From Picocystis sp. L7 (taxonomy: Eukaryota > Chlorophyta > Picocystophyceae > Picocystales > Picocystaceae): a stretch of DNA of 64,000 bases. The position numbers and the translations under genes are program-made. The notes under the pieces were generated by a model. The model saw nothing but the letters and a program-made list of their open reading frames with translations. It searched no databases and had not been told where the DNA came from. Location: contig QXJR01000015.1 of the NCBI GenBank assembly GCA_020975725.1, positions 248,001 to 312,000 of the forward strand. The letters run 5' to 3'. Below, in pieces: positions 16,441-56,291 of this stretch. Within the stretch, counting starts at the first letter, position 1, and each line of letters begins with the position of its first letter.

Positions 16441-18861
16441 TTATTGCAATACTTCGATTGCCATCTTCACGTACAAACTAATGAAGCAGTAGAAGTTCCT
16501 ACCATTCGTACATGGAAAAAATTCGCGATATTCTTGCTGCTTTCTGAATGGAACTGCTGCTGCTTTCTGAATGGAACTGCTGCTGCTTTCTGAATGGAAC
16601 TGCTGCTGCTTTCTGTATGGAAGTGCTGCTGCTTTCTGTATGGAACTGCTGCTGCTTTCTGTATGGAACTGCTGCTGCTTTCTGTATGGAACTGCTGCTG
16701 CTTTCTGTATGGAAGTGCTGCTGCTTTCTGTATGGAACTGCTGCTGCTTTCTGTATGGAACTGCTGCTGCTTTCTGTATGGAAGTGCTGCTGCTTTCTGT
16801 ATGGAACTGCTGCTGCTTTCTGTATGGAACTGCTGCTGCTTTCTGTATGGAACTGCTGCTGCTTTCTGTATGGAACTGCTGCTGCTTTCTGTATGGAACT
16901 GCTGCTGCTTTCTGAATGGAACTGCTGCTGCTTTCTGTATGGAACTGCTGCTGCTTTCTGTATGGAACTGCTGCTGCTTTCTGTATGGAACTGCTGCTGC
17001 TTTCTGTATGGAACTGCTGCTGCTTTCTGTATGGAAGTGCTGCTGCTTTCTGTATGGAACTGCTGCTGCTTTCTGTATGGAACTGCTGCTGCTTTCTGTA
17101 TGGAACTGCTGCTGCTTTCTGTATGGAAGTGCTGCTGCTTTCTGTATGGAACTGCTGCTGCTTTCTGTATGGAACTGCTGCTGCTTTCTGTATGGAACTG
17201 CTGCTGCTTTCTGTATGGAAGTGCTGCTGCTTTCTGTATGGAACTGCTGCTGCTTTCTGTATGGAACTGCTGCTGCTTTCTGTATGGAACTGCTGCTGCT
17301 TTCTGTATGGAAGTGCTGCTGCTTTCTGTATGGAACTGCTGCTGCTTTCTGTATGGAACTGCTGCTGCTTTCTGTATGGAACTGCTGCTGCTTTCTGTAT
17401 GGAAGTGCTGCTGCTTTCTGTATGGAACTGCTGCTGCTTTCTGTATGGAACTGCTGCTGCTTTCTGTATGGAAGTGCTGCTGCTTTCTGTATGGAACTGC
17501 TGCTGCTTTCTGTATGGAACTGCTGCTGCTTTCTGTATGGAACTGCTGCTGCTTTCTGAATGGAACTGCTGCTGCTTTCTGAATGGAACTGCTGCTGCTT
17601 TCTGAATGGAACTGCTGCTGCTTTCTGTATGGAACTGCTGCTGCTTTCTGTATGGAACTGCTGCTGCTTTCTGTATGGAAGTGCTGCTGCTTTCTGTATG
17701 GAACTGCTGCTGCTTTCTGTATGGAACTGCTGCTGCTTTCTGTATGGAACTGCTGCTGCTTTCTGTATGGAACTGCTGCTGCTTTCTGTATGGAACTGCT
17801 GCTGCTTTCTGTATGGAACTGCTGCTGCTTTCTGTATGGAACTGCTGCTGCTTTCTGTATGGAAGTGCTGCTGCTTTCTGTATGGAACTGCTGCTGCTTT
17901 CTGTATGGAACTGCTGCTGCTTTCTGTATGGAACTGCTGCTGCTTTCTGTATGGAAGTGCTGCTGCTTTCTGTATGGAACTGCTGCTGCTTTCTGTATGG
18001 AACTGCTGCTGCTTTCTGTATGGAACTGCTGCTGCTTTCTGTATGGAAGTGCTGCTGCTTTCTGTATGGAACTGCTGCTGCTTTCTGTATGGAAGTGCTG
18101 CTGCTTTCTGTATGGAACTGCTGCTGCTTTCTGTATGGAACTGCTGCTGCTTTCTGTATGGAACTGCTGCTGCTTTCTGTATGGAAGTGCTGCTGCTTTC
18201 TGTATGGAACTGCTGCTGCTTTCTGTATGGAAGTGCTGCTGCTTTCTGTATGGAACTGCTGCTGCTTTCTGTATGGAAGTGCTGCTGCTTTCTGTATGGA
18301 ACTGCTGCTGCTTTCTGTATGGAACTGCTGCTGCTTTCTGTATGGAACTGCTGCTGCTTTCTGAATGGAACTGCTGCTGCTTTCTGTATGGAACTGCTGC
18401 TGCTTTCTGTATGGAACTGCTGCTGCTTTCTGTATGGAACTGCTGCTGCTTTCTGTATGGAAGTGCTGCTGCTTTCTGTATGGAACTGCTGCTGCTTTCT
18501 GTATGGAACTGCTGCTGCTTTCTGAATGGAACTGCTGCTGCTTTCTGTATGGAAGTGCTGCTGCTTTCTGTATGGAACTGCTGCTGCTTTCTGTATGGAA
18601 CTGCTGCTGCTTTCTGTATGGAACTGCTGCTGCTTTCTGTATGGAAGTGCTGCTGCTTTCTGTATGGAACTGCTGCTGCTTTCTGTATGGAACTGCTGCT
18701 GCTTTCTGTATGGAACTGCTGCTGCTTTCTGAATGGAACTGCTGCTGCTTTCTGAATGGAACTGCTGCTGCTTTCTGAATGGAACTGCTGCTGCTTTCTG
18801 TATGGAACTGCTGCCGGTTAATGTGACTGTGAGAATGAAAATTGTTATGGATACACATCAT
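16441..18861 (-). CDS. 806-residue repeat ORF inside the transposon, coding status uncertain
   Basis: The 23-bp tandem array is open in this frame over its whole length, giving about 32 copies of a 23-residue unit (around KAAAVPYRKQQQFHTESSSS) with unique ends of about 25-35 residues. Because 23 is not a multiple of three, each protein repeat equals three DNA repeats. The ATG overlaps the stop of the upstream nuclease gene in an ATGA arrangement on the same strand, which could allow reinitiation. The C-terminal unique part runs to 25 bp from the SANT stop. No known domain is visible; Gln, Ser, Ala and His dominate. It may be a real low-complexity protein or only a stop-free by-product of the array. 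Confidence 0.4.
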   Translation of the reverse strand: MMCIHNNFHSHSHINRQQFHTESSSSSIQKAAAVPFRKQQQFHSESSSSSIQKAAAVPYRKQQQFHTESSSTSIQKAAAVPYRKQQQFHTESSSSSIQKAAALPYRKQQQFHSESSSSSIQKAAAVPYRKQQHFHTESSSSSIQKAAAVPYRKQQQFHTESSSSSIQKAAAVPYRKQQQFHTESSSSSIQKAAALPYRKQQQFHTESSSTSIQKAAAVPYRKQQHFHTESSSSSIQKAAAVPYRKQQQFHTESSSTSIQKAAAVPYRKQQHFHTESSSSSIQKAAAVPYRKQQQFHTESSSTSIQKAAAVPYRKQQQFHTESSSSSIQKAAALPYRKQQQFHTESSSSSIQKAAAVPYRKQQQFHTESSSSSIQKAAAVPYRKQQQFHTESSSTSIQKAAAVPYRKQQQFHTESSSSSIQKAAAVPFRKQQQFHSESSSSSIQKAAAVPYRKQQQFHTESSSTSIQKAAAVPYRKQQQFHTESSSTSIQKAAAVPYRKQQQFHTESSSSSIQKAAALPYRKQQQFHTESSSSSIQKAAAVPYRKQQHFHTESSSSSIQKAAAVPYRKQQQFHTESSSTSIQKAAAVPYRKQQQFHTESSSSSIQKAAALPYRKQQQFHTESSSSSIQKAAAVPYRKQQQFHTESSSSSIQKAAAVPYRKQQQFHTESSSSSIQKAAAVPYRKQQQFHTESSSTSIQKAAAVPYRKQQQFHTESSSTSIQKAAAVPYRKQQQFHTESSSSSIQKAAALPYRKQQQFHSESSSSSIQKAAAVPFRKQQEYREFFPCTNGRNFYCFISLYVKMAIEVLQ
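16535..18815. repeat. Tandem array, 99 units of exactly 23 bp
   Basis: The unit is CTTTCTGTATGGAACTGCTG plus CTG on the plus strand. The ATG of each unit recurs every 23 bp from 16548 to 18802 (98 steps) without one insertion or deletion. There are three main unit types: TATGGAAC (commonest), TATGGAAG (every three to four units) and AATGGAAC (12 units). AATGGAAC units stand in threes at both ends (16548-16594, 18733-18779) and near the middle (17560-17606), suggesting block duplication. Confidence 0.97.
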
Positions 18862-20255
18862 GAAGACGGTTCTCTACCCAGCGGCGGTGAGTTGTTCTGA
18901 TCACCTTCTTCTGAATAATGAAAAACACCGTCTGTTTGCCGCTGAATCAGCTCAGCATATTCTTGCAACGTAGGAGGAGCGATACCTAGGTAATCCGTCG
19001 TCACGCCACCGCACAAACAAGTATGAAAGTTGGTCAGTAACGCGGCAACCACGTCCTCCTTACCAGTTTGACGGAGCAGAACCGTCTTTCGAGTCTTATC
19101 GCCAACGAACGGCCACAACTGTTCGAGTTTTCCAAAAATCCATTCCACGGCCTGTCTGTACTTGCTCATGTCCTCGTTGAAGGTCGCTTCGTCCGCAGAA
19201 ATGTCCCCTCTGAAAGGCCGACGCAAAAGATCCGTGGACGGGTAGGCACCGTCACCGTACAAAGTCACCTCTTCGCCCAGTTCACGGACGATCGCTCCCA
19301 AGCGCTGCTGCATGTTCGACCTTCGCCAAATATTCGCATCTCCCACCGAACCAGCATATGGACCGTCGAAGTCTGCGATCATGAAGTTAGAAAGTACCAC
19401 CGCCTGGTACTTCGTTGCATGCATTCGCTTCCAACCGTTGTAGGCCGCGTCTTCTCCCTCGGTTGGTCGGCGGATCTTGAACAACGTCCCGTCAATGAAC
19501 CCACAACATGAGGGAATCCGACATCCCCTCGTTGCAAGTGCGTCTGCCAGTCGAGGCAGCTCACTTGCCCATAGTTCCAAACGCAACGCTCGCTTAGCGA
19601 AGGGGTATATGTGGTCGAGCATTGCGTTGTGAAGCTCCGACAAGGCACTGGCGGTCCGGTCAAAGGTGTGAGATAGATGATGCAAGTTCTCCAACCCTGC
19701 CAAGCGCCGCAACAACAACAACATCCCTTCCTCTCCTGTGAAGACACGTCCTGTCCCTTGGACGCGGATAGTTCGTGGGACACGGAGAATTCTCATTAGC
19801 TCGTGTATCTCTGGACCCACAAACCGGCAATGCTGCCGCAACCAATCGTCCGAAAAGCCATCGATCGTTCGCGGCACGTTCGTAACTGCGCTTTTGTACG
19901 TCCAATACCGCTTGGCATTTTCTAAATCTTCCCAACATTGCTCGATGGCGGCAAGTACGAGACGTAGAACCCCAGTCCGCACATCAGCACGGAGCCGATG
20001 TGCGGCCATGAAACCAATGAAAAGACCCACGAGCTCGTCAAACTGCTTGCGGAGCATCCTTCGCTCCAGCGCGCATCCCACTCGCGATGGCATGGCCCTT
20101 CCTCTTTCCCGCGGAATCTCGGACCTCGTTCCTGTTCGACGGCCTGGGGTGCAGCGCGCGTGGAGGAACGTGGTCCGCTTTCCCCAAAACTCCTCCACGA
20201 TACATAGCGAATGAAAAAATATTCGCTTGCGATCCCTTAATAAAAACCGCCCCAT
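18858..20255 (-). CDS. Harbinger DDE nuclease (transposase)
   Basis: This is a 465-residue protein with the DDE_Tnp_4 plan of HARBI1-like nucleases. The first catalytic Asp is in CGFIDGTLFKI (Asp255), the second in LYGDGAYP (Asp335), and the Glu is in VEWIFGKLEQLW (Glu371). Before them lie a helical region with GEEGMLLLLRRLAG and the typical HHLSHTFDRTASALS segment, where the usual helix-turn-helix is found. The enzyme cuts and rejoins the element ends. All three catalytic residues are present and the frame is unbroken. The ATG at 20255 is the first; codon 55 (20093) is a plausible alternative because the first 50 residues are poorly conserved and Arg-rich. The stop overlaps the start of the repeat ORF. 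Confidence 0.92.
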   Translation of the reverse strand: MGRFLLRDRKRIFFHSLCIVEEFWGKRTTFLHARCTPGRRTGTRSEIPRERGRAMPSRVGCALERRMLRKQFDELVGLFIGFMAAHRLRADVRTGVLRLVLAAIEQCWEDLENAKRYWTYKSAVTNVPRTIDGFSDDWLRQHCRFVGPEIHELMRILRVPRTIRVQGTGRVFTGEEGMLLLLRRLAGLENLHHLSHTFDRTASALSELHNAMLDHIYPFAKRALRLELWASELPRLADALATRGCRIPSCCGFIDGTLFKIRRPTEGEDAAYNGWKRMHATKYQAVVLSNFMIADFDGPYAGSVGDANIWRRSNMQQRLGAIVRELGEEVTLYGDGAYPSTDLLRRPFRGDISADEATFNEDMSKYRQAVEWIFGKLEQLWPFVGDKTRKTVLLRQTGKEDVVAALLTNFHTCLCGGVTTDYLGIAPPTLQEYAELIQRQTDGVFHYSEEGDQNNSPPLGREPSS

Positions 20256-26962: not shown

Positions 26963-29900
26963 ATGGAAGGAGTGAATTTCGAAAAACTGAACTCCGAAAA
27001 CTTCCCGATATGGAAACATCGGATGAAAGCCCTGCTGATCACCAAGGGAGTTGGAGAAGCCATCTTAAACAAAGACAGTGAACACTCCGAAAAGGCATTG
27101 GCACTCATGTGCTTGTGTGTGAGCAATGAGTATGTGGATTTGGTGGCGAACTCTGAATCTGCGCAGCATGCGTGGACGATGCTCGAGGACATGCATGCGG
27201 GTCAAACCGCCGCACGCCGTCTCACCCTGCGCAAGGAGTTAACAGGACTTACCAAGAAACCGGAGGAAAGCATGATGAGCTTCATCATGCGTGGAAAGCA
27301 GATCTGCACCAACCTGCGCGCGATCGATGGGTCGGTGACCGACATCCATCTGATCGATGCGATCTTATCTGGCCTGCCGGAGGAATATGCCAACAAGGTA
27401 GAGATGCTGACTACCTTGGGAGAGACAGACATGCTCAAAATTCAGAATCAGCTTCTCCAGGCAGAAAGTGCCATCACCGTGCGAGAGACATCTAGAGGCC
27501 AGGTTGCTTTCGCTACGCAGAACCGACGCCCGAAGTTTACCTGCAGCTATTGTGGCAGAAGTGGACATGGCCGCGAAAAATGCTGGTACCTGAACGGATT
27601 GCCTCCACATCTGCAGAAACAACCCAGAAACGATAGGGAGACGGATGAAAAGGTTGCACTGGTCTCTTACGCTTTGGAATGTGGAAATGCAAACTGTTTG
27701 GAAAATATCTGGATCGTGGACAGCGGCGCCACCGCTCATGTTTGCGCTCAACAAGAGATGTTTACATCTATGACACAAGAAGCATCGCCGCAGTCCATCT
27801 TGGTTGGAAATGGAGAAGTAGTGCACGCCAAGCAATCTGGCACCGTTGCTCTTGCTGAAAACGTGGAATTGCAGAAGGTGCTGTTTTGCCCGGAACTACG
27901 GGTGAACTTAATCTCGGTTCCAAAACTGATGGAACGTGGATGCAACGTGTACTTTGAAAATGGGGAATGTGCGATTTGGAAAGGAAAGCAGAAAGTCCTC
28001 AGTGCGGTGCAGAAAAATGGTCTTTACGTGATCTGTGGAAAAATGGAAAACGTTTTCTCAGCCAAGGAGTGGCACAGAAAATTGGCTCATTTTGGCCAGA
28101 TGGAAAAGCTGCACGACACCGTGGTAGGTGTACCAGACAATCTAAAGTGGAACAAAATCAGTTGTGAAACGTGCATCCAAGCCAAACAAGCCAGATCTGC
28201 CATTCCCAAAGGAAATGAAGAAAATCAAGCAAATGTTGGAGAATTGTTGCATATGGATTTGATGGGACCCATCACGCCTGCTGGAAAGAACGGAGAAAAA
28301 TACATTGTCAGCATTCTGGACGAGAAGAGCAAACTGGGGGTTGCAAAACCTATTTGCTACAAATCACAAGCAGCAGCTGTCATCAAAACGGTGATTCGGC
28401 TGATGGAGAAGCAAACTGGAAATGCTGTGAAGTTTGTGCGTTCGGATCGTGGAACCGAATTTCTCAATGCAGAGTTACAAAACTTTCTGCAAGAAAACGG
28501 CATCCAGCAACAGACGAGTGCACCATACACTCCACAACAAAATGGAAACGCAGAACGATATAACAGGACAATTCTGGAAAAAGTGCGCGCAGTGCTCTTG
28601 GATGGTGGTCTGGACAAACGTTTTTGGAGCTTTGCCGTGGAATATTGTGCTCTTGTCAGAAACCGTTTGCCTTGCAAACCTCATGGCCGTACACCCTACG
28701 AAGCAGTTTTTGGTCAGAAACCGGATGTTTCCAATATGCACATATTTGGTGAAACGTGTTATGTGCTGAAGAATCCAACTGAGACAACTGGAAAAATGGA
28801 TGCAAAAAGTAAGCCAGGTCATTTCGTTGGATTCGAGCCTGGAACAAAAGACACGTACCGTATTTGGTGTGGTGAAAAATTGGTACTGTCCAGAAACGTC
28901 ACTTTTCTTGGTGTGACAGAGAAACCTACAGCATCGCCAGATGACACTCAGGAAGACATAACGCCTATGCCTACCGCGTCAGAAACATTGGAACCTGTTT
29001 CGTTGGGGGAGAGGCAGAACAGTACAATTGAAAATGTGGAATTACCAGAGCACGAAACAACCGAGGGAATGGGAGATGCAGAAAACATCAGCAATACGGC
29101 TGCTGAAGAAAGGCGCTACCCACTTCGTGAACGTCGTCCACCACAGCCATATTGGACTGCAAATGTTTGCTTGACCGATCCTTTGACTTTGGATGAGGCT
29201 TTAGGTAGCCCCCAGCACGATGATTGGAAACTGGCCTTGCAGGAAGAAGTATCCAGTTTGAGCGAGCAGGATGTTTTTGATGTGGTGGACCGAACGCCTC
29301 AGATGAAGACTCTGCCTTGCAAGTGGGTCTTCAAGGTAAAATACGACCAAGATGGGAACATCCAACGTTTCAAGGCTCGCCTGGTTGCCAAAGGATTCAA
29401 ACAGGTTGCAGGCATTGATTTTGGTGAAACGTTTGCACCGGTGGCAAAACAAAGCACTTTACGTTTATTGTGGACCTTGGCTGCTAAACGAGACTGGGAA
29501 GTCGAAAACATTGACATCAAAACGGCTTTCCTCAACGGTGATCTGGACGAAGAAATCTACATGGATATGCCCCCTGGTTTTCAGGTGGATGGCAAAGTTT
29601 GGAAATTGAAAAAGACCCTGTATGGTCTTAAACAAGCCCCACGTGCCTGGCACATCAAACTCACGGATGTTTTGGAAAAGCTTGGATTCAGATGCTCCAC
29701 TGCAGATCCGGGCTTATACGTGGGTGAAGACATGTTGCTGATGGTCTACGTGGATGACCTGTTGCTTTGTGGAAATGGCAGATCAAAAGTGGAAAATGTC
29801 AAGCAATCCTTGCTGACCACCTTTGAAGGCAGAGACCTTGGGCCCACGGATCACTTTCTGGGAATTAAAATGGAACGTGACCGAACTGGAAAAACGGTCT

Positions 29901-30718
29901 TTCTCAGTCAAGAGACCTACGTGAACAACGTGCTGGAAAGGTTCAGAATGGCAGATTGTTACAGTGTTTCTACGCCATTGGAACCTGGAACAAAATGGAC
30001 CTCAGATGCAACAGCCACAGAATCCAACTTTCCATATCAGGAATTGGTTGGGTGTCTCATGTACCTTGCAGTGTCCACAAGACCAGACATAGCTTATGTG
30101 ACCAATCGTCTGGCCCGCTATGTCTCTGCACCAACCAGCAATCACGTGGCCGTGGCCAAGAGGGTCCTGAAATACCTGAATGGCACAAAGGCAGTTGGTA
30201 TCTTGCTGGGTGACAGCTCCCCAAGTTTGCTGGAAGGCTATTGTGATGCCAATTACGGAGGCTGTGAAGAAACCAGACGTAGCACAACTGGCTACGTGTT
30301 CACTTTGCACGGCAGTTTGGTTTCCTGGCAGACGAAATTGCAGAAAACAGTTGCCGTGTCCACGACGGAGGCCGAGTATATGGCTGCTGCTTCTGCAGCA
30401 AAAGAAGCGTTGTACCTGAGAAAGGTGTTGAATGATATTGGATTTGGGGCCCAATGCATCACCATTCATTGTGACAATCAAGGTGCTGTGAATTTGACGA
30501 AGAACGCTCTGACGGTGTCCCGTACGAAACACGTCGACATCGCCCATCATTTTGTGCGGAACCGCGTGAGTCGGGGAGAGCTGAAATTCCAGTACATCAG
30601 CACAAATGATCAGCTGGCCGATTTCCTGACCAAGGCCCTGGGGCCCACCAAGTTGCAAGCTGCATTGAAGACATTGGGCTTGTTGGAATACCAGGCCATG
30701 AGCAGGGGAGAGTGTTGA
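26963..30718 (+). CDS. Copia gag-pol polyprotein
   Basis: The 1251-residue frame covers the whole copia polyprotein. It opens with a gag region of the UBN2 kind (NFPIWKHRMKALL...). Next come a CCHC zinc knuckle (CSYCGRSGHGREKC) and an aspartic protease (IVDSGATAH). Integrase follows, with its HHCC finger and core (GELLHMDLMGPI, VRSDRGTEF). Reverse transcriptase (WVFKVKYDQDG, LMVYVDDLLLCG) and RNase H (YCDANYGGC, TKHVDIAHHFVR) complete it. The stop lies a few bases inside the right LTR. It looks whole. Confidence 0.95.
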   Translation: MEGVNFEKLNSENFPIWKHRMKALLITKGVGEAILNKDSEHSEKALALMCLCVSNEYVDLVANSESAQHAWTMLEDMHAGQTAARRLTLRKELTGLTKKPEESMMSFIMRGKQICTNLRAIDGSVTDIHLIDAILSGLPEEYANKVEMLTTLGETDMLKIQNQLLQAESAITVRETSRGQVAFATQNRRPKFTCSYCGRSGHGREKCWYLNGLPPHLQKQPRNDRETDEKVALVSYALECGNANCLENIWIVDSGATAHVCAQQEMFTSMTQEASPQSILVGNGEVVHAKQSGTVALAENVELQKVLFCPELRVNLISVPKLMERGCNVYFENGECAIWKGKQKVLSAVQKNGLYVICGKMENVFSAKEWHRKLAHFGQMEKLHDTVVGVPDNLKWNKISCETCIQAKQARSAIPKGNEENQANVGELLHMDLMGPITPAGKNGEKYIVSILDEKSKLGVAKPICYKSQAAAVIKTVIRLMEKQTGNAVKFVRSDRGTEFLNAELQNFLQENGIQQQTSAPYTPQQNGNAERYNRTILEKVRAVLLDGGLDKRFWSFAVEYCALVRNRLPCKPHGRTPYEAVFGQKPDVSNMHIFGETCYVLKNPTETTGKMDAKSKPGHFVGFEPGTKDTYRIWCGEKLVLSRNVTFLGVTEKPTASPDDTQEDITPMPTASETLEPVSLGERQNSTIENVELPEHETTEGMGDAENISNTAAEERRYPLRERRPPQPYWTANVCLTDPLTLDEALGSPQHDDWKLALQEEVSSLSEQDVFDVVDRTPQMKTLPCKWVFKVKYDQDGNIQRFKARLVAKGFKQVAGIDFGETFAPVAKQSTLRLLWTLAAKRDWEVENIDIKTAFLNGDLDEEIYMDMPPGFQVDGKVWKLKKTLYGLKQAPRAWHIKLTDVLEKLGFRCSTADPGLYVGEDMLLMVYVDDLLLCGNGRSKVENVKQSLLTTFEGRDLGPTDHFLGIKMERDRTGKTVFLSQETYVNNVLERFRMADCYSVSTPLEPGTKWTSDATATESNFPYQELVGCLMYLAVSTRPDIAYVTNRLARYVSAPTSNHVAVAKRVLKYLNGTKAVGILLGDSSPSLLEGYCDANYGGCEETRRSTTGYVFTLHGSLVSWQTKLQKTVAVSTTEAEYMAAASAAKEALYLRKVLNDIGFGAQCITIHCDNQGAVNLTKNALTVSRTKHVDIAHHFVRNRVSRGELKFQYISTNDQLADFLTKALGPTKLQAALKTLGLLEYQAMSRGEC
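30700..30712 (+). other. Polypurine tract
   Basis: A purine-rich run ending GGGGAGAG lies directly before the right LTR, as expected for the plus-strand primer of an LTR retrotransposon. Confidence 0.65.
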
Positions 30719-52841: not shown

Positions 52842-55118
52842 TCATGCAACTATCAGCTTCTCAAGCCTGTCACTACGCTCCTTCACGTGACCAATAACGC
52901 TCGCTTTTTCATAGCCTGCCTTGTGAAGCTCTTCTAGGGTAGACAACGCATTTTCTGGTGCCACAGATGCTAGCAATCCCCCAGACGTTTGAGGATCAAA
53001 AAAAATGGGCCAGGCAGGGTTCAATCTGGCTTCAGATAGGTTGTCCACAGATCGGCACAGCTGTAAATTACTTGGATACAGGGAAGAAAATATGCCCGCC
53101 TCTGCGCAATGTGTGGAGCCCTCGAGCATGGGGACAGAATCGGCGTGCAGCTCTGCTGTAACATTTGATGCATCCAGAATCTCGAGAAGATGACCGACCA
53201 GCCCAAATCCTGTGACGTCTGTGCAAGACGACGCCTGATACTTTCGAAGTATATCTGCTGCCTGCGCGTTTGATTGTGTCATGTAGTGGATGGACTCGTC
53301 CAGCCAACGTGCTTTTGCCTTCCCCCGCATGTCCGCTGCAAAAATCAAGCCAGTACCGATGGGTTTGGTAAGAATGATTGCGTCCCCAGGCACGGCGCCT
53401 GCCTTGCACAGGAGCTGGCCTTTCTCCCCCATTCCACTCACGCTGAACCCGAGGCTTGTTTCCTCCCCCTCACAAGTGTGACCACCAACTAGAGAACAAT
53501 TGGCCTTCCTGAACTCCTCGCAAGCTCCTGACAGAAGCTGAAAGAGCATATCCTCGCTTAGCTGCTCGCTTGCATATGGAATTGTGGCCAAGGCCATTGC
53601 TGACACAGGTTCAGCACCCATAGCAAAGAGATCGCTCAGTGCATGGAGAGCAGAAATACGACCAAATGTGTACATGTCACCCATGAATGCACGAAAAAAG
53701 TCTACAGTGCTCACCGAAACTTTACCGGGAGGGTACTCGACTACAGCGGCATCTTCGGCCGACTTGACGCCCATCAAAACCTCTGGTCGATGGACGATCG
53801 TTGGCTCAAGGCGCTGCAGTACTCGTTTCAATACAGAGGATCCAATCTTTGCTCCACAACCTGCACATCGCATGCCAGATACCTTCATGGCCTCTTTGAA
53901 TTCCAACGTTGAAGCATTCTTGGATATCGCTTTATCATTGTCAGATTCCATCATCTCGAACGGCAAATCCTTTCCATACTTGTTCATCCAAGAAATATCG
54001 AGCCAATTTTTCCACCTCCACACCCACTCCCCGCGAAGGATGAACCATTTTCCATAGAGCGCCATACCATACTTATTGCCTGTGCTCACGATGCTGAGAT
54101 AGTTTGACTGTGGCTTGAAAGGTCTCGGCAACTCTCCTGACAGGACCCGTTTCAAATTTTCTGCCAACGGAGGTCCCTGTCGTACTGCAAAGACCCCAGC
54201 TTTGGGACGCGGGTACTCCTTGCAGGACGCGCAATCGCCAACGGCAAATATGTTGTCATCTGTCAAAGTCTGCAGGGTTGGTCTTATAACAAGAAAGCCT
54301 GCTTCGTCCGTCTCCAAACCTGTGTTTTCCTTCAGCCACTTTGGTGCTCCCGCTTCTGTGCACCAAAGGCAGTGGGTGAATGGAATTTCCAGCCCGTCCT
54401 CCGTTTGGAGATGGTCTGGCTGAACGCTGACAACTTTCCTATTCTCGAAGAGTTTCACGCCGCGTCTCTTGAACTCTTCGACAAAAACGTTCCTGGCTTG
54501 GGGATGAGACTGAATGATGGACCCTTGGGTGCAGAGGACGAAGTTGGCCGGTGGAAGCGGACGTGAGGAAGCTTCTCTTTCCTGATGGAGCCTGTGCTGC
54601 ATGGCCAGGACGAGTTCCACACCTCCTGCCCCACCTCCAACGACCACCACCGTGGTGGTTTGTTCGCTGTTTTTGTACTCGTTCACCATGGTTTGCCATC
54701 TTGTCCAGAACCCGTCGATGGGTTTGACGGGTACGGCGTGACGATCCGAGCCTTTCGCTGCTTCCATCTTCGGTCGAATTCCCACGTTGATGCTGAGTAG
54801 ATCGTATCGCAGCGGTGGTCTTCCACGCAAGACCACCTGCTTGTCTTCCCTTCGGATCCCTTCCACTTCGGCATGGATCATCTGAACCTTGGCCAGCCTG
54901 GCCAGCGGTGCCAGATCCACGTGGCATTCGTCCTTGGTGTAATGTCCTGCCACGCTGCCAGGCAGCATCCCGCTGTACGGTGCATGCGTCTCTCGCGTGA
55001 CCAAGGTCAGGCGGACCCCCTCCACCGGTCGCATGGCGAAGGATTTCAGCACGGCCACGTGGGCGTGTCCGCCTCCCACGAGCACCAGGTCCTTCGTGAA
55101 GGGAACGGAAGGACGCAT
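52842..55118 (-). CDS. NDH-2-like oxidoreductase fused to selenophosphate synthetase (SelD)
   Basis: This is a 758-residue protein. Residues about 8-370 form an FAD-dependent NDH-2-like oxidoreductase, with dinucleotide folds at LVLVGGGHAHVAVL and VVVVGGGAGGVELV and an FAD-closing NIFAVGDCAS. Residues about 405-758 are SelD: RCAGCGAKIG with the catalytic Cys421 and Lys424, AEDAAVVEYPPG, STVDFFRAFM, SDLFAMGAEPVSAMA, GGHTCEGEE, DVTGFGLVGHLLE and FFDPQTSGGLL. SelD makes selenophosphate from selenide and ATP for selenocysteine or selenouridine. The second Cys of bacterial GCGC is Ala, as is usual in the fused form. Such fusions are known from cyanobacteria and some algae; the oxidoreductase may supply reduced selenium (inference). 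Divergent from CRIPT-OCRE. Confidence 0.95.
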   Translation of the reverse strand: MRPSVPFTKDLVLVGGGHAHVAVLKSFAMRPVEGVRLTLVTRETHAPYSGMLPGSVAGHYTKDECHVDLAPLARLAKVQMIHAEVEGIRREDKQVVLRGRPPLRYDLLSINVGIRPKMEAAKGSDRHAVPVKPIDGFWTRWQTMVNEYKNSEQTTTVVVVGGGAGGVELVLAMQHRLHQEREASSRPLPPANFVLCTQGSIIQSHPQARNVFVEEFKRRGVKLFENRKVVSVQPDHLQTEDGLEIPFTHCLWCTEAGAPKWLKENTGLETDEAGFLVIRPTLQTLTDDNIFAVGDCASCKEYPRPKAGVFAVRQGPPLAENLKRVLSGELPRPFKPQSNYLSIVSTGNKYGMALYGKWFILRGEWVWRWKNWLDISWMNKYGKDLPFEMMESDNDKAISKNASTLEFKEAMKVSGMRCAGCGAKIGSSVLKRVLQRLEPTIVHRPEVLMGVKSAEDAAVVEYPPGKVSVSTVDFFRAFMGDMYTFGRISALHALSDLFAMGAEPVSAMALATIPYASEQLSEDMLFQLLSGACEEFRKANCSLVGGHTCEGEETSLGFSVSGMGEKGQLLCKAGAVPGDAIILTKPIGTGLIFAADMRGKAKARWLDESIHYMTQSNAQAADILRKYQASSCTDVTGFGLVGHLLEILDASNVTAELHADSVPMLEGSTHCAEAGIFSSLYPSNLQLCRSVDNLSEARLNPAWPIFFDPQTSGGLLASVAPENALSTLEELHKAGYEKASVIGHVKERSDRLEKLIVA

Positions 55119-55658: not shown

Positions 55659-56291
55659 ATGGTGTGTCCAACGTGCGAGAAGCAGCTGGGAAAGGTGATC
55701 TGTCCGGAACCGTGGAAGGAAAGGAACCGAAGCACGGGGAAGAAAGGACCGGAAAACAAACTCCTGGCCAACCAGAAGCGATGGAAACCCTACACCGACA
55801 CCTGCAAAGTGTGCAAGCAAGTGCTCCACCAACCAGGAAAGTACTGCCTCGGATGTGCCTACGAAAGAGGGATCTGCTCCAGGTGCGGAAAACAAATCAT
55901 CGACACCTCCATGTATCGCATGTCAGACAGTGCTCCGAAGAGGAAAAAAGGGCAAGAAGACGAAAAAAAAGAACCGTGCCAAGGCGAAAACGAAAGCACC
56001 GAACAGGAAACGGAACTTGCGCTCCTGACCGATGGAAGAAGCAATGCGTCGGTGCTGGAACGACACAACGAACAAAAAGCACCGGACAGGCGAGAAGCTC
56101 ACAAAGGCGCTCAGGATGATCAGAAAGATACAGTGAAGGATTGGCGAACCAAAGAGGGAAATGATGCAAAGCCAGAATGGATCTACGATCCCAAGTCTGG
56201 GTACTATTACGATGCATCCTCTGGGTACCATTACGATCCAAGCACGCAGCTCTACTACGATTCCCGTACGCAGCGCTGGATCAAGTCATGA
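55659..56291 (+). CDS. CRIPT: CRIPT protein with a C-terminal OCRE domain
   Basis: This is a 210-residue protein. Residues 1-90 are CRIPT: MVCPTCEKQLGKVICPEPWK, then KLLANQKRWKPY, and Cys pairs at 3/6, 49/52, 63/66 and 73/76 (CKVC, CLGC, CSRC) for zinc. Ordinary CRIPT is about 100 residues and ends soon after. Here a charged linker (91-170) leads to an OCRE (octamer repeat) domain at about 171-210, with tandem units of the form YDPKSGYYYD, SGYHYDPST and LYYDSRTQRW. CRIPT was named for PDZ binding and has more recently been tied to the minor (U12) spliceosome; OCRE domains occur in splicing regulators such as RBM5 and bind proline-rich tails of Sm proteins. A splicing role is therefore the best inference. 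Confidence 0.92.
   Translation: MVCPTCEKQLGKVICPEPWKERNRSTGKKGPENKLLANQKRWKPYTDTCKVCKQVLHQPGKYCLGCAYERGICSRCGKQIIDTSMYRMSDSAPKRKKGQEDEKKEPCQGENESTEQETELALLTDGRSNASVLERHNEQKAPDRREAHKGAQDDQKDTVKDWRTKEGNDAKPEWIYDPKSGYYYDASSGYHYDPSTQLYYDSRTQRWIKS

Follow-up and report, generated by a model that had tools for sequence, protein, structure and literature searches.

The window, by which we mean the whole stretch of 64,000 nucleotides analysed here, contains a gene whose product joins a CRIPT zinc module, through a charged linker, to a short C-terminal OCRE domain. This is a new domain architecture built from known parts. Our search of 5.39 million open-access papers gave no publication naming CRIPT and OCRE together, and the architecture may already be listed in sources of other kinds. 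According to the explanation that we favor, to which we give about an even chance of being correct, the fusion is genuine and conserved and is tethered in the major spliceosome to a proline-rich tail, SmB being its likeliest source.

Domain composition of the fused protein

The reading frame of the CRIPT-OCRE gene is uninterrupted from its ATG to its TGA, with neither a stop codon nor an intron inside (Table 1). As the original prediction held, one frame carries both domains, and both Pfam matches lie far above their gathering cut-offs: Cript (PF10235) scores 81.5 bits (E 7.2e-23, cut-off 25.5), and OCRE (PF17780) scores 58.4 bits (E 7.3e-16, cut-off 24.7), the latter spanning profile positions 4-40 of 52 only. 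Seven other Pfam families are listed up to E 1, and every one of them is under its cut-off. In a search of the sequences of solved structures, the N-terminus matches the human CRIPT chain 7dvq_0 (E 1.7e-23), and the C-terminal tail matches the OCRE domains of RBM5 (5mf9, E 2.2e-5) and RBM10 (2mxw, E 5.7e-4). The human chain has 101 residues, in agreement with the length of about 100 that had been given as normal for CRIPT; 121 residues of the algal protein lie beyond the Pfam Cript match, this norm being a convention of length and not a criterion of fold. The linker, estimated beforehand at about 80 residues, measures 77.

Table 1 Positions in the window of the CRIPT-OCRE gene, its parts and other features mentioned in the text
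Feature	Position	Strand	Remarks
CRIPT-OCRE gene	55659..56291	+	Single-exon ORF, 210 aa and TGA stop
CRIPT domain, residues 1-93	55659..55937	+	Pfam match at residues 12-89
CRIPT-OCRE linker, residues 94-170	55938..56168	+	77 residues, 47% K/R/D/E
OCRE domain, residues 171-210	56169..56288	+	Pfam match at residues 173-209; genome match at 56175-56285
Oxidoreductase/SelD-like ORF	52842..55118	-	758 aa
Tandem array	16535..18814		23-bp unit, 99 copies, 97% matches
DDE transposase ORF	18858..20255	-	
Copia-type polyprotein ORF	26963..30718	+	1251 aa, uninterrupted

The zinc ligands of human CRIPT are C3, C6, C58, C61, C73, C76, C83 and C86 (PMC10676203). In the alignment to 7dvq_0, all eight are present in the algal protein (C3, C6, C49, C52, C63, C66, C73 and C76), and the two four-cysteine zinc sites of the family are complete. 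The algal protein resembles human CRIPT in this whole zinc module, in its MVCxxCEK start and in its HQPG and CAYxxGIC motifs; it differs by two four-residue and two one-residue gaps in the alignment, and by its C-terminus, where the linker and the OCRE domain stand instead of the usual end.

A chance resemblance of a tyrosine-rich tail to OCRE was ruled out with an HMM built from five OCRE segments, none of them from a CRIPT protein, against which the tail scores 55.7 bits and the best shuffled tail 12.1 (2000 shuffles made, 1991 scored). The anticipated alignment of the tail with OCRE profiles was thus obtained both with this five-sequence profile and with PF17780. We also considered whether a second, ordinary CRIPT could render the fused copy dispensable, and this was ruled out: the 20.5-Mb genome (30 contigs) gives one CRIPT match, the CRIPT-OCRE gene itself.

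Predicted fold and ligand surface of the OCRE domain

An AlphaFold2 model was built from an alignment of two sequences, with a mean pLDDT of 44.9 over the whole model. The tail is the only part modelled confidently, with a pLDDT of about 80-86 across the C-terminal 40 residues, and the CRIPT part is not reliable. The linker has a pLDDT of about 31-45, which is no separate evidence of disorder because the CRIPT part is equally low; judged by its composition and its divergence between relatives, the linker is probably flexible. Structure prediction of residues 171-210, which had been proposed as a check, gave strands at 175-177, 182-185, 190-193, 198-201 and 206-209. With the numbering shifted by 288, these coincide with β1-β5 of RBM5 (462-465, 470-473, 478-481, 486-489 and 494-498; PMC5127646), and β6 (504-506) is without a counterpart in the algal tail, where the domain ends earlier. 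Of the six antiparallel strands that form the twisted OCRE sheet, five are therefore predicted, in a model made from two sequences. Foldseek ranks the RBM10 OCRE domain first (E 0.03) and the RBM5 OCRE–SmN structure 5mf9 second (E 0.08, probability 1.00), the latter superposing at 1.2 Å over 37 columns with 49% identity; no match falls below E 0.001, a level scarcely within reach of a part of this size. Moreover, the octad spacing of the RBM5 and RBM10 domains is preserved, and each of the four tyrosines on the core face of RBM5 (464, 471, 480 and 487) has a tyrosine counterpart (Y176, Y183, Y192 and Y199). The profile match, the sequence and the predicted fold, short of one strand, all identify the tail as a true OCRE domain. 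Unlike those of RBM5 and RBM10, it sits on CRIPT and not on an RRM/zinc-finger protein.

The surface that would face a ligand is less uniformly preserved. According to PMC5127646, nine positions of RBM5 contact SmN (470, 472, 479, 481, 484, 486, 488, 490 and 495); Tyr482, which is named in the Discussion of that paper, was excluded, being a proline in the 5mf9 sequence. Their algal equivalents are Y182, Y184, H191, D193, T196, L198, Y200, S202 and W207, of which five are identical (Y182, Y184, D193, Y200 and S202), two are conservative (T196 for S484 and W207 for Y495) and two are changed (H191 for Y479 and L198 for Y486). In measurements reported for RBM5, Y495W binds as well as the wild type (35 vs 41 µM), and by ITC Y479A (111 µM) and Y486A (145 µM) are 2.7 and 3.5 times weaker than the wild type at 41 µM; in pull-down, Y479A is clearly weaker and Y486A is not significantly impaired (PMC5127646). 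In the same source, Y497 and E501 are dispensable for SmN binding in pull-down, and Y497 is required for FAS splicing (PMC5127646); the former corresponds to K209 in the algal tail, and the latter is without a counterpart. Because H191 and L198 depart from the RBM5 contacts and K209 replaces Y497, we consider the binding of a proline-rich tail by the algal OCRE domain to be plausible but not assured.

Conservation of the fusion

The database copy of the window protein, P0001, represents a 90%-identity cluster with three member sequences on six contigs, the longest of these measuring 9323 bases and the window's own contig 677,519. A relative, P0002, has 208 aa, is 64% identical to P0001 over the whole length, contains both domains and shares the same C-terminal end point. 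This cluster and this relative make an assembly accident unlikely. The identity between P0001 and P0002 is 85/93 in CRIPT, 18/75 in the linker (two further columns gapped) and 31/40 in OCRE; the 18 linker identities compare with a shuffle mean of 6, as relatives would show. Among the contact positions, P0002 carries F where RBM5 has Y488. Since CRIPT and OCRE are conserved and the linker diverges, both ends look constrained, like two modules on a loose tether, a pattern that comes from two sequences only.

Protein searches that need shared exact words returned P0001, P0002 and an OCRE protein, P0003, in which OCRE is the sole Pfam domain, and beyond the two fusions they gave no CRIPT in another architecture. 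The suggested search of CRIPT homologues for OCRE tails has therefore borne fruit in so far as P0002 has the same architecture. In viral contigs, five pattern matches were obtained, and none is a relative.

SmB and the other OCRE proteins of the genome

SmB, named from its sequence, is one of 18 LSM matches in the genome (L027). Its tail, read across a GT-AG intron, is 129 residues long; 44 of these are prolines, PPP occurs in five runs, and the RPPP(P)G-phi-R motif has no exact occurrence. Three OCRE matches were found in the genome, namely CRIPT-OCRE, an RRM+OCRE protein (L002, 970-1947, +) and a WBP4/ZOP1-like zf-U1+OCRE protein (L003, 1108-2274, -), which has a match to WBP4 in its finger region (E 1.1e-11) and an OCRE match that is likewise short (profile positions 3-40 of 52). 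In this genome, then, OCRE is found repeatedly on proteins of splicing type. ZOP1 and WBP4, the latter presumably the same protein as FBP21, are comparable to CRIPT-OCRE in that a small zinc module is combined with a module that binds proline motifs; the difference is that their finger is zf-U1 and not CRIPT. Plant ZOP1 is described as a splicing factor with a zinc finger and OCRE (PMC12406697), and human FBP21 is reported to engage the SmB tail through WW domains (PMC5127646). Because the fusion is real, its tail is a true OCRE domain and the SmB tail is rich in proline, the physical link to Sm proteins that was originally claimed is plausible; its binding step, a grip of CRIPT-OCRE on the SmB tail, is one that we infer.

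Major and minor spliceosome components

Two U6 genes (L005 and L006) and one U4 gene (L067) were identified in the genome with Rfam, and GT-AG introns occur in the SmB and DIM1 genes. Therefore, the major spliceosome is present. Our search for the minor spliceosome covered U12, U6atac and TXNL4B. With the Rfam models, U12 had no match among the 42 of 395 candidates that were scored, and the U2 control likewise had none among 46 of 156. Because the U2 control failed, the negatives obtained with RNA models are weak, and the absence of these snRNAs is suggestive only. The U12 core pattern gave no match at 0-2 mismatches and eight matches at three (seven for the reversed control), and none of these eight loci is U12 by cmscan at E 0.1.

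The best U6atac match, L034, scores 20.9 bits, under the gathering score of 33. An upstream element, GTCCCACCACCGGTTC, which we take to resemble the plant USE, lies 66-72 bases upstream of the two U6 genes, the U4 gene and a tRNA-Sec gene (L046), with 0, 0, 2 and 1 mismatches, respectively; in the 200 bases before L034, its best fit has 8 mismatches of 16. On account of this score and the lack of the element, L034 was ruled out as a U6atac gene. Genome-wide, with up to three mismatches, the element is matched 401 times, less often than its reversed control (544), and its 30 best loci comprise two U6, one U4, one tRNA-Sec and 26 without an Rfam family.

In the DIM1 family, one gene was found, two matches 77 bases apart being its exons, and by sequence it is TXNL4A (188 bits vs 61 for TXNL4B). 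TXNL4B had no match in the genome, where a diverged or split copy could escape. Of these two paralogues, TXNL4A is the DIM1 protein of the major spliceosome, and TXNL4B binds CENATAC, a factor of the minor spliceosome (PMC8280824, PMC9887622); the main texts of these two papers do not mention CRIPT. Furthermore, a published report states that red and green algae lack U12 components, and that U12 introns are missing from Chlamydomonas, the sole green alga named in its intron table, and from C. elegans (PMC2846911). From the negatives with their failed U2 control, one protein family and the literature on other green algae, we conclude that the minor spliceosome is probably missing from this alga. 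The original prediction had also expected the fusion to support a place for CRIPT in the minor spliceosome, and this expectation was not supported, as the U12 core, U6atac and TXNL4B were not found, in searches whose RNA-model part is weakened by the failed U2 control.

Discussion

We propose that the CRIPT zinc module would dock on the core of an snRNP, in the way that human CRIPT engages the U12 snRNP, and that the OCRE domain, on its tether of about 77 residues, could hold a tail rich in proline, for which SmB is the likeliest candidate, a hold that would raise local affinity. Given that a minor spliceosome was not apparent in this green alga, the particle served would most likely be the major (U2-type) one. 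If CRIPT does serve the major spliceosome, its role in splicing is not confined to U12 introns. Literature on human CRIPT describes it as confined to the minor B-act complex (PMC11039992) and reports that it stabilises the U12 snRNP (PMC10676203), and our literature search gave no publication that assigns CRIPT to the major spliceosome. We put forward only tentatively, as falling somewhat short of an even chance, the broader proposition that CRIPT is not minor-specific and belongs to the major spliceosome, sitting on the SmB tail via a captured OCRE domain in an alga without U12 splicing. If true, it would expose a general snRNP-stabilising function of CRIPT, of which the human structure shows just the U12 guise. 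CRIPT is a human disease gene to which both synaptic and splicing roles have been ascribed (PMC10676203). Its natural fusion with a domain that binds snRNP tails supports the splicing role independently, from the side of evolution, and the presence of this fusion in an organism that seems to lack the minor spliceosome raises the question of whether CRIPT acts in the major one as well.

Human CRIPT ends in a QTSV-type PDZ ligand, and in the alga the linker and OCRE stand in its place. The replacement argues against a reading in which the OCRE domain is real but binds a proline-rich protein other than SmB, with CRIPT acting outside the spliceosome in a nuclear or cytoskeletal role, as do the RRM or U1-type zinc finger on the genome's other two OCRE proteins and the description of OCRE as a spliceosomal module (PMC5127646). 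The same reading would be consistent with H191 and L198 on the binding face, with the SmB tail lacking the exact motif and with the microtubule and PDZ roles described for CRIPT (PMC5718245, PMC10676203), and we regard it as a serious candidate, albeit an unlikely one. We consider it improbable that the alga retains a minor spliceosome and that, through the fusion, CRIPT is joined to the U12 snRNP by way of its Sm proteins. The human literature cited above and the weakness of snRNA searches in which U2 itself was missed speak for such a retention; the report on green algae (PMC2846911), the outcome of the U12 core and U6atac searches and the single DIM1 gene being TXNL4A speak against it. Moreover, C. 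elegans has a CRIPT orthologue (PMC5718245), though it is reported to be without U12 splicing (PMC2846911).

The truncation of the domain and its two altered contacts could also suggest that the tail is a passive relic of gene fusion without function. However, the tail has diverged far less than the linker between P0001 and P0002, the two sequences compared, and ends at the same point in both, and we think a relic very improbable. That two genes were joined by an artefact of assembly or gene modelling is scarcely credible: the fusion, as read from DNA sequence, lies in one frame without stop or intron, and it recurs in the six-contig cluster and in a 64% identical relative with both domains.

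Other features of the genome and window

The upstream, divergently transcribed neighbor of the CRIPT-OCRE gene encodes a fusion of a pyridine-nucleotide oxidoreductase with a SelD-like (AIRS/AIRS_C) domain and is without an evident link to splicing. Because this SelD-like fusion is accompanied by the selenocysteine tRNA L046, selenoproteins are likely. Elsewhere in the window, the tandem array has an open frame readable on the minus strand and adjoins the DDE transposase ORF, and the copia-type retrotransposon polyprotein includes gag, integrase and RVT_2. The genome has 18 chlorophyll-binding matches, and the two that were compared with solved structures are both green-type antenna proteins: L012 matches LHCII chains at up to 394 bits and L015 matches Lhca2-type chains at up to 277 bits, which presumably come from plants and green algae, and the top row for both is 9vfj, with long multi-domain 'LHCI' chains. 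Since L012 and L015 are of the LHCII and Lhca types, an initial assignment to the red algae was rejected, and we take the organism, with its 20.5-Mb genome, to be a green alga, a group reported to be without U12 splicing (PMC2846911).
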